A stretch of 38,769 nt of DNA from Desulforhopalus sp. (lineage in GTDB: Bacteria > Desulfobacterota > Desulfobulbia > Desulfobulbales > Desulfocapsaceae), in contig WTAT01000528.1 of assembly GCA_013139415.1 (NCBI GenBank), positions 1 to 38,769 on the forward strand. Direction: 5' to 3'. Shown here in pieces: positions 7,482 through 38,118 of the stretch; position 1 is the stretch's first letter, and every line of letters starts with the position of its first letter. Made by a program: the position numbers and the translations under genes. Under the pieces are notes generated by a model, which saw only the letters and a program-made list of their open reading frames with translations, did no database searches and was not told where the DNA came from.

Positions 7482-7567
7482 TAACACCCCACAAGGGGGT
7501 ACTAAAAAAGAGAGACAGGCTTTCAGGAGTACTCAGTTTAGTGCCCCCTTGAGGGGTAAGGCACTAA
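7482..7567. repeat. Interspersed GC-hairpin repeat family 1, copy A
   Basis: 44 bp at 7523-7566 match 13481-13524 with one mismatch; internal inverted repeat TTAGTGCC(7538-7545)/GGCACTAA(7560-7567). Confidence 0.8.
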
Positions 7568-19991: not shown

Positions 19992-20185
19992 TTAGTGTCT
20001 TACTCCAGATTTTCTGTCATAAAAACAAGAAGTCTGAAGAGTGTTTTGAAATTGGAAACTTAAAGTAACCTGCAAGGCACTTATACCCCCTTGTGGGGTG
20101 TTAGTGTCTTTGAAATTATACTCTTATCATTATCCCCCTCAGATAAGTGATGGACCCTGAGGAGGTACTCAAAAGTACAGTTTAT
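19992..20185. repeat. Interspersed GC-hairpin repeat family 1, copy C
   Basis: 20025-20102 matches 37006-37083 at 72/78 positions; right part 'ccctcagataagtgatggaccctgaggaggta' matches copy B 'ccctcaggtaagcgacagactccgagggggta'. Confidence 0.85.
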
Positions 20186-34528: not shown

Positions 34529-35269
34529 TTGAAAGATCGTCTTGATCAGATATTAATCCGCAGAAAAATTGCCCCTACAATCGAAACAGCACGGGCAATG
34601 ATAATTGCCGGAGAAATATATATTAATGAACAGGTGTCGGATAAACCAGGGCGATCATATTCAACAGACGTGTCGATCCGCATTAAAGAAAAATGTCGGT
34701 ATGTCTCACGGGGTGGCCTGAAACTCGAAAAAGGGCTGTCCCATTTTGGTGTCTCTCCTTCTGGCCTGATCTCTCTTGATATTGGTGCTTCCACCGGTGG
34801 CTTTACGGATTGCCTTCTCCAGCACAATGCCCGAAAAGTGCACGCTGTTGATGTTGCCTATGGACAACTTGCCTGGAAAATCAGGCAGGATCCCAGAGTG
34901 GTCGTTCTCGAACGCTTCAACGCAAGAAACATCACTGCAAAAGATATCAATAGTGACCACATTGATCTAGCAGTTATGGATGTTTCGTTTATTTCCTTGA
35001 CCACCCTTATTCCCCCAATATCAAAACTCTTTGCACAGGAGGTGACGATTCTCGCGCTTATAAAACCGCAATTTGAGCTTCCACGAGATGACGTTGGCCC
35101 AGGAGGAGTTGTGAGTGAACCAGCACTGCACATTAAGGCTATAGAAAAAATTGAATCCTTTGTCCAACAATTCGGGTTGATCAGCAAAGGAACTGTCCCC
35201 TCCCCCATACTTGGCCCCAAAGGTAATCGGGAATTCATTATTTACATTAGCTCCAATCAATCAGGCTAG
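34529..35269 (+). CDS. TlyA family rRNA methyltransferase (S4 + FtsJ-like)
   Basis: 'MKDRLDQILIRRKIAPTIETARAMIIAGEIYIN' S4; 'SRGGLKLEKGLSHF', 'LDIGASTGGFTDCLLQ' FtsJ-like; TTG start. Confidence 0.92.
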   Translation: MKDRLDQILIRRKIAPTIETARAMIIAGEIYINEQVSDKPGRSYSTDVSIRIKEKCRYVSRGGLKLEKGLSHFGVSPSGLISLDIGASTGGFTDCLLQHNARKVHAVDVAYGQLAWKIRQDPRVVVLERFNARNITAKDINSDHIDLAVMDVSFISLTTLIPPISKLFAQEVTILALIKPQFELPRDDVGPGGVVSEPALHIKAIEKIESFVQQFGLISKGTVPSPILGPKGNREFIIYISSNQSG

Positions 35270-35337
35270 AACTGCAAATATTTACCTTCTTGGGGAAGGT
35301 GGAAAGCTGTCAAATAAAGAGACCCATTACCCGACAA

Positions 35338-36948
35338 ATGTCATTAGCAATGAAACCAACAACTATTTTTCAGTTTTTGCTCTTTATTATCTTAATTTTG
35401 ACCGGATCCGCTTTTAGTCAAACTTCCAAACAGTTTAATCCTCAATCATTTTCCCTGCTCTATTCAAGTAACGTTTCAGGTGAATACGAACCCTGCGGTT
35501 GAAAGTCAAATCAGCTGGGCGGACTGTCCGGCAAAGCTCATATAATTGACAAACTAAGAGCTGAGTTGCAACAACCCTTGATTATTGTTGACGCTGGAAA
35601 TCTTCTCTTTAAAAAGGCGCTTTCAGACTCCAAAGGTATAAGCAACACCACCGCCTTAATCACCGCTTATGGTCTCGTCAGGGCTTATAAACAGATGTCG
35701 TATGACGCAGTTGGTATCAGCTCAAATGATTTGTCCGCTGGAACTGAATTTTTCCGGCGATCAATTGACAATTCCTTCCCTTGGGTAGCAGCCAATATTT
35801 ATGATAAAAAAGCCAACCTTCTTTTTTCACCACATATCATTAAAAAATCCGGAAACCTGACTATCGGTATTATTGGCTTAACAGGGGCCGCTGGAAACAA
35901 TATCGAAGATTTCGTTATCAGCGACTGGCGAAAATCGCTGCGGAAGCAAATTGCTTTACTTCAAAAGAACTGTGACATGCTTGTTGTTCTCTCCAGCCTG
36001 AACCTCTCTGAAAACAAAGAAATACAGAGAAACTTCAAGCAGATAGACATCATTGTTTCAGCTAGCCAGAAAGGGAGGAATATTCAACCACAGACAATAC
36101 AAAACGGCCTGCTCATCCAAGGTGGAGGTCGAGGGAAATATATAGGAAAACTCGATATCACCCGAAATAGCGAAGGTAGTTGGCACCTCGCTTCACCCCA
36201 ATCGCCTGATTATCAAAAAAACAGACTCAGATCCATCGACCGGCAGTTAAAACAGCTTGCTAAACAACAAAGCTTAACTGGCAAGGATTTCTCCCAGAAA
36301 ATGGACAGGCTGCGATCATCCAGGGAAATAATTTCCAAGCAAATAGCACAGCAGGTGACAGACCTGACCGAAAAAAAGACTCTATCAGCCAAGAGTTATA
36401 AATCCTCTTTTCTGCCGGTCAAACCAAAGTCACCAACTGGAAAGATCGGTATAATCGTACAGGATATAAAAAAGAGTATCAATACATTCACCAGATATCA
36501 ACGAGCTGCTCTACAGCCAGGTGATCCAGCCGTTCGCCGCGCACTGCAAAACGATGAGATTGCCGGCATTAGCAGCTGTGTTCCTTGCCACGAAAAGCAA
36601 GCTGAATTCTGGAAGAATACCAGGCATTCCAATGCTTATGCCACTCTGTCCCAACAAGGTCAGTCTTTTAATCTCCAATGTCTGCCATGCCATGTAACTG
36701 CCGGTAAAGTTATCCACTCTTCAGTCGATTCTGAGTTGCTCTTTCTCCTTACACTCAGCACTGATCGCCAAACAATAGGTTGTGAAGTATGCCACGGCCC
36801 TGGCAACCGCCACCTTCTTTCCCCTGACGAAGTTACTCCAGAGCGTCTGCCTTCAGAAAAAATCTGCTTGCAATGCCATACTCCTGATCGGGACAACAAT
36901 TTTGATTATCAAAAAAAACTTGCCACAATTGCCTGTCCGGTCGATTAG
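35338..36948 (+). CDS. candidate selenoprotein: UshA/5'-nucleotidase-like domain fused to a multiheme c-type cytochrome; in-frame UGA (Sec?) at 35500-35502
   Basis: 35338..35502 and 35503..36948 are in the same frame separated only by TGA. Signal peptide, 'LLYSSNVSGEYEPCG(U)KSNQLGGLSGKAHIIDKLRAELQQPLIIVDAGNLLF', then four CxxCH motifs (CVPCH, CLPCH, CEVCH, CLQCH). Confidence 0.8.
35503..35532 (+). promoter_or_regulatory. candidate bacterial SECIS element
   Basis: After the TGA: 11 nt spacer, then 7-bp stem GCUGGGC(35514-35520)/GUCCGGC(35526-35532, includes G.U pairs) with loop GGACU; loop begins 18 nt past the UGA. Confidence 0.6.
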
Positions 36949-37085
36949 TGCCTTACTCCTGAAAGCCTGTCATTCAGTTCAATACCCCCTTGAGGGGTGT
37001 AAAAAACAAGAAATCTGGAGAGTGTTTTGAAATTAGGGACTTAAAGTAACCTCCAAGGCACTTATACCCCCTTGTGGGGTGTTGA
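36945..37085. repeat. Interspersed GC-hairpin repeat family 1, copy D
   Basis: 78-bp block 37006-37083 matches copy C (72/78); 'ttagtgccttactcctgaaagcctgtcattcagttcaatacccc' matches reverse complements of parts of copies A and B. Confidence 0.85.
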
Positions 37086-37100
37086 ATCAAGGCCACAAAT

Positions 37101-37134
37101 AAAAAAGGGCAGTTACATTAAAATGTAACTGCCC
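37101..37134 (-). terminator. Rho-independent terminator of the ppaC gene
   Basis: 12-bp perfect stem gggcagttacat / atgtaactgccc followed (on minus strand) by T6. Confidence 0.9.
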
Positions 37135-37188
37135 TCAATATTCTTCCGGACGCTACCGGAAGCACAACTCTTAATCAGAGTATTCTGA

Positions 37189-38118
37189 TTAACAACCGAA
37201 AGCGTTCTGCAAATTAGGTACAGTCTGCTTTTTGCGGCTCATCATACCGGGAATCCACATGCAATTTCCGTCAAGTTTGGTATCAAAGGCCTTTTCGATC
37301 AGAGCAGGATCATCGGAAAGAACGACCAGGTCAGTTCCCTCTTTCACAACATCAGTGAGCATAAGCAGTACGGTGTGACGACCATCGGCCTTAACTTCTT
37401 CCATTGCCCCTGCGAGTGCTTCGCGAATAGCAGCAACTTGATCAAGAGTTGCAAGTTCAAGCTGACCAACACCTACTTTATTACCTTTCATATCAAAGTC
37501 TTTGTAGTCACGAAACAGCAGGTCTTTTGCTGGAACACCATCAACAGCAGACTTGGCTTTTAACATTTCCATAAAAAGCTCTTCAGTATCAGCGACACCA
37601 GCAACAGCTTTCAGGTCATTGACAGCAACCTTGTCATCTTCGGTGCAGGTGGGTGATTTGAAATTAACTGTGTCACTCAAAATAGCTGCCAACATTCCAC
37701 CAGCAATATCTTTAGGAATTGCAACACCGGCTTCCTTGAACATTTTATTCAATACGGTACCGGTACAGCCGACAGGCTCTGCCCTGAAAAGAATAGGATT
37801 GTTAGTGGTGACATCACCAATTTTGTGATGGTCAACAACTGCAACTAATTCAGCTGAATCTAAATTTGCAGGCCCCTGGGCAAGATCGCTAAAGTCTACG
37901 AGCGCGATTTCTTTTCCAGCTGCATCGTCAAGCATTTCAGGAGCAGCGAGACCAAAACGTTTTAAAACGGTGGTGGATTCAGGGTTCAGATCTGCAGCAG
38001 CGATTTGCATACATGCCTTCGCTTCCATTCCCTGAGCGTTAAGCAGAGCTGCAAGTGCGATCGCAGCAGTTACTGAATCAGTATCAGGATTTGCATGTCC
38101 AACAACAGAAATAGCCAT
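37189..38118 (-). CDS. ppaC: manganese-dependent inorganic pyrophosphatase (DHH family)
   Basis: 'VVGHANPDTDSVTAAIALAALL', 'VAVVDHHKIGDVTTNNPI', 'ILSDTVNFKSPTCTEDD', C-terminal 'MMSRKKQTVPNLQNAF'. Confidence 0.96.
   Translation of the reverse strand: MAISVVGHANPDTDSVTAAIALAALLNAQGMEAKACMQIAAADLNPESTTVLKRFGLAAPEMLDDAAGKEIALVDFSDLAQGPANLDSAELVAVVDHHKIGDVTTNNPILFRAEPVGCTGTVLNKMFKEAGVAIPKDIAGGMLAAILSDTVNFKSPTCTEDDKVAVNDLKAVAGVADTEELFMEMLKAKSAVDGVPAKDLLFRDYKDFDMKGNKVGVGQLELATLDQVAAIREALAGAMEEVKADGRHTVLLMLTDVVKEGTDLVVLSDDPALIEKAFDTKLDGNCMWIPGMMSRKKQTVPNLQNAFGC

Follow-up and report, generated by a model that had tools for sequence, protein, structure and literature searches.

We identified in the window, the whole 38,769-nt stretch of Desulforhopalus sp. 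DNA analyzed here, a gene that is a new member of an already catalogued family of UshA-like selenoproteins. Its single in-frame UGA codon is almost certainly decoded as selenocysteine (Sec; U), as judged from sequence. The best overall explanation of the gene would combine Sec decoding, a degenerate phosphatase fold, and a heme-linked selenothiol redox function, and we give this reading as a whole a probability of about 0.8. The gene (Table 1) occupies one register from an ATG codon to a TAG codon, with an alternative ATG start codon at 35350; the stretch 3' of the TGA comprises 481 codons and a stop. The initial annotation had proposed that one TGA separates a leader-bearing 5' part from an open frame in the same register, with the junction NVSGEYEPCG-U-KSNQLGGL, and both the arrangement and the junction were recovered. 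The predicted signal peptide region, a hydrophobic leader, corresponds to a helix (residues 7 to 26) in a structure model, and the protein is probably exported to the periplasm. The read-through protein contains four CXXCH motifs, at residues 414-418, 448-452, 482-486, and 510-514 (first nucleotides at 36577, 36679, 36781, and 36865).

Table 1. Features of the UshA-like selenoprotein locus and its flanks (window coordinates)
Feature	Position	Strand	Basis or remark
tlyA (rRNA 2'-O-methyltransferase), upstream	34529..35269	+	ends a tolQRAB-ybgF-tlyA run
UshA-like selenoprotein gene	35338..36948	+	536 aa with UGA as Sec; NF041198 match
Predicted signal peptide region, MKPTTIFQFLLFIILILTGSAFSQ	35350..35421	+	sequence pattern only
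UshA/5'-nucleotidase-like N-terminal domain, metal ligands lost	35452..36177	+	Foldseek, ligand table
Cys53 codon TGC, Sec partner in C-G-U	35494..35496	+	invariant in 18 and in 38 aligned members
UGA codon, residue 55, read as Sec	35500..35502	+	codon conserved across homologues
Bacterial SECIS-type hairpin GCUGGGC-GGACU-GUCCGGC, inside coding sequence	35514..35532	+	folding and conservation
Mostly helical linker	36178..36564	+	secondary structure of model
Tetraheme cytochrome c554-like domain	36565..36885	+	PF13435, E = 1.4e-11
Perfect 14-bp inverted repeat resembling an intrinsic terminator of the minus-strand gene	37106..37135	.	
DHH/DHHA2 protein, Mn-dependent inorganic pyrophosphatase type, convergent downstream	37189..38118	-	

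The read-through protein matched the NCBIfam model NF041198 (UshA_like_PCGU) with 478.3 bits (curated cut-off, 275 bits) over residues 16 to 525, spanning the UGA, and the post-UGA piece by itself matched this model from position 42 onward. The PCG-U/C motif of the family, specified by a UGA or a Cys codon, is present. Because one family model covers both sides of the UGA and the hairpin described below was more stable than any of 400 recodings, the read-through frame does not arise by chance. The UshA-like family has been listed among CxU selenoproteins (PMC2398784, as COG0737, UshA-like; PMC9312934; PMC13188914), and the Sec claim is thus right but known in kind. The window protein shares with NF041198 the full-length match, the PCGU motif, and the UshA-like domain with a cytochrome part, and nothing sets it apart from that family. 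The initial annotation regarded Sec on a tetraheme cytochrome fusion as functionally notable; the combination of Sec and a cytochrome part is already catalogued in NF041198. A related N-terminal domain occurs in NF049981 (UshA-like (seleno)protein family 2), but the score (49 bits) is below the cut-off of 140 and that family has a CxxU motif, in contrast to CxU here. Although the protein shares a fold and weak sequence similarity with the Escherichia coli UshA 5'-nucleotidase and the SoxB thiosulfohydrolase, it scores far under their family cut-offs, lacks their metal and catalytic residues, and carries Sec and hemes in addition. The C-terminal four-heme domain scores above the gathering threshold of the cytochrome c554 family (PF13435) but, unlike that family, is fused to a selenoprotein domain.

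The genome encodes the machinery for Sec insertion. The genes selA, selB, and selD and tRNA-Sec (selC), for which the initial annotation had suggested a search, were all detected over cut-off in the same assembly, which is fragmented (7.3% estimated contamination) and carries the sel genes on contigs other than that of the window. Two selD genes were found (G000 C462:2069-3001, L012; C348:497-1429, L013), each with one in-frame TGA, so that SelD is itself probably a selenoprotein; one of the copies may derive from contamination of the assembly. A genome-wide use of UGA as a sense codon (e.g., Trp or Gly) would likewise supply the read-through that the window gene needs. However, TGA terminates 7 of the 30 likely genes of the window as well as 9 of 34 long frames of the genome, RF2 is encoded, and relatives have Cys at the site, which makes this explanation extremely improbable.

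The UGA codon is kept in 112 collected loci with 86 distinct 48-nt UGA-plus-downstream sequences, the loci coming from two sources that overlap in organisms. Matches above the NF041198 cut-off were found in 64 of 98 genomes of the taxonomic family to which the window's genome belongs, nearly all strong matches having one internal TGA, and in 58 of 298 genomes of a phylum sample. A separate genome scan, using a pattern with X at the Sec column, found the motif in 53 loci, of which 52 had TGA and 1 had TGC. The expectation that Cys occupies the UGA column elsewhere was borne out: homologues have either UGA or Cys there, with Cys encoded by TGC in one orthologue (L141; CCC TGC GGC TGC, i.e., PCGC) and present as CGC in five more distant relatives (L083, L084, L085, L086, and L089). 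The existence of the TGC orthologue, together with the single in-frame stop and the draft state of the assembly, would favor a reading of the gene as a pseudogene or an artifact, in which a Cys codon was changed to TGA by nonsense mutation or misread in sequencing. This explanation is extremely improbable, since the same codon is TGA in >100 related loci, the frame is open beyond it, and the hairpin signal is seen in TGA carriers but not in Cys homologues; a misread TGC or TGT at 35500 cannot account for such conservation. Thus, both the pseudogene and the genome-wide recoding were rejected, on TGA conservation and on TGA stops with RF2, respectively.

The hairpin downstream of the UGA has the geometry given in the initial annotation, with 7 pairs (35514-35520/35526-35532), a 5-nt loop starting with GG (GGACU), and a UGA-to-loop spacing of 18 nt. 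Lying just 3' of the UGA and having a G in the apical loop, it conforms to a predicted bacterial SECIS element. Codons after the UGA were swapped synonymously with same-gene codon weights and nucleotides 12 to 37 from the UGA were refolded; none of the 400 recodings was as stable as the window hairpin (z = -4.06). The mean z was -1.92 for 60 Sec genes (which are related rather than independent, so that the mean is not convertible to a P value) versus -0.18 for 8 Cys homologues, and from -0.09 to -0.36 for six positions further 3' in the Sec genes. When each gene was considered individually, values below 0.05 were obtained for 43% of the Sec genes but for none of the 8 Cys genes. Dinucleotide shuffling of the window hairpin gave weaker support than recoding (z = -1.7 and -0.9), and an Rfam scan of 35200-37200 returned nothing above gathering scores. 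Codon choice in the stem is far more restricted than background at Gly61, Leu63, and residue 64: among 59 distinct Sec sequences, Gly61 is encoded solely by GGC or GGG, and the residue 64 codon always ends in CC, compared with background use of GGC for 34% of Gly and TCC for 27% of Ser. The stem occurs in three registers across subfamilies, and in each register almost every sequence preserves the inner pairs. In the TGC orthologue, the stem codons are GGA, CTA, and TCA, and these differing third bases indicate that the stem has been lost, in what is one orthologue and one event.

The N-terminal domain retains a fold but not the active site associated with it. A structure model built from 38 sequences (mean pLDDT, 78; below 50 in the Sec loop, residues 50 to 58) matched E. 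coli UshA and CD73 in Foldseek with an E value of about 1e-15, indicating a 5'-nucleotidase fold. We take the two-metal site of UshA to consist of D41, H43, D84, N116, H217, H252, and Q254, with H117 and D120 as catalytic residues. None of these 9 positions is kept in the window protein as aligned with E. coli UshA (L104), an alignment with only about 17% identity, in which the motifs were anchored by neighboring conserved residues. Across the 38 members, D84, N116, D120, and H217 are kept in none, H252 and Q254 in 1, H43 in 2, and D41 in 18 (UshA numbering); in all, 6 of the 9 active-site positions are kept in 0 or 1 member and two more in 2 to 4. A Cys-form tetraheme relative (L086:69-1427, minus strand) has D84-, H217-, and H252-type residues and may represent a transitional stage from phosphoesterase to redox protein. 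These residues, the fold itself, and the Asp equivalent to D41 in 18 of 38 members are compatible with a domain that is still a metal-dependent phosphoesterase, in which Sec would play an auxiliary part or coordinate some other metal center. We regard such a function as quite improbable, given that 6 of the 9 positions survive in at most one member and the window protein keeps none. The initial description of the protein as phosphoesterase-like therefore stands for the fold and not for the role. Because the metal ligands are nearly all gone while C53-G54-U55 and the four CXXCH motifs are invariant, "UshA-like" denotes a fold and not an activity, which suggests a family whose ancestral phosphatase active site has been lost.

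The conserved elements of the family are P52-C53-G54-U55, G61-G62, D85, D131, and the heme motifs. C53, residue 55, and the four CXXCH motifs are invariant in the 38 aligned full-length members (the alignment prints U and C alike as C, and residue 55 codons were read separately), and the four CXXCH motifs are also invariant in an 18-member alignment. One locus (L065:1-1548) has PSGR instead of PCGU, with both redox residues lost and the frame otherwise intact; such a joint loss would be as expected for a pair. Another (L101) has Gly in place of Cys53 and keeps U, which argues against a strict need for Cys53. The CXXCH motifs are absent from 12 of the 53 genome-scan loci with the Sec part present, so not every member requires fused hemes, and of the two parts the Sec domain persists more widely. 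The tail-less Sec relatives are L132, L146-L150, L152, L154, L155, L160, L161, and L168; frames with heme motifs lie downstream in L161 and in L147, the latter a two-heme fragment. These arrangements suggest that the cytochrome part was lost or became detached in some lineages.

A redox partner gene was sought in the flanks of the window gene and its relatives and none was found, the flanking genes being of housekeeping types. In 28 relatives, the gene that follows is a homologue of the pyrophosphatase-type gene; on the upstream side, tlyA in the window contrasts with a RarA-like gene, a name resting on sequence recognition, in 39 relatives' loci. The closest relative found (57% identical) comes from a metagenome-assembled genome labeled Desulfopila aestuarii (Desulfocapsaceae, Desulfobulbales), and other named loci belong to Desulfocapsa, Desulfobulbaceae, and "Candidatus Electrothrix" (L143, L144, and L166). 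The hairpin repeat ATACCCCCTTGWGGGGTGT occurs in the window at 7484-7502 (minus strand) and at 20083-20101, 36982-37000, and 37064-37082 (plus strand). Its 17-nt core has 263 occurrences in the genome versus 0 for a reversed control, and it was not found in 64 relatives' loci. Since the copies share flanks, e.g., AAATCTGGAGAGTGTTTTGAAATTAGG and CTTAAAGTAACCTCCAAGGCACTTA, it resembles a dispersed REP- or MITE-like element.

SelB and tRNA-Sec, with the coding-sequence SECIS hairpin 18 nt downstream, almost certainly decode the UGA at 35500 as Sec. The resulting protein, probably exported, combines a 5'-nucleotidase fold, in which the metallophosphatase site has degenerated, with four motifs for c-type hemes. 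We propose that, at C53-Gly-Sec55, a selenol/selenenyl-sulfide couple would react with a small periplasmic substrate, perhaps sulfur or peroxide, and the tetraheme tail, by an inferred step, would exchange electrons with the periplasmic cytochrome pool in either direction. We put the chances of this redox mechanism, which is drawn from sequence features, at about even. Sec is able to act as a metal ligand, and C-G-U would make a short chelating pair; the site might instead bind or sense metals or reactive species, with the tetraheme domain as an electron store and no dedicated substrate turnover. The occurrence of heme-free members fits such a role, whereas the invariance of the heme motifs in full-length members points to electron transfer, and we consider the binding or sensing role somewhat unlikely. 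A further proposal, speculative and rated by us as unlikely, is that in Desulfocapsaceae and cable bacteria a 5'-nucleotidase/SoxB-type fold has been converted into a heme-wired selenoenzyme whose new active site, C-G-Sec, uses a sulfur compound as substrate.

The UshA-like selenoprotein family is widespread in Desulfobulbales, cable bacteria included. Beyond the identity already catalogued, the contribution of this analysis is that the family name is mismatched with its chemistry: the name derives from a phosphatase, but the active site of that enzyme has disappeared from the family, and the name misleads on the reaction to be expected. The C-G-Sec pair with four hemes offers a testable hypothesis for its function.
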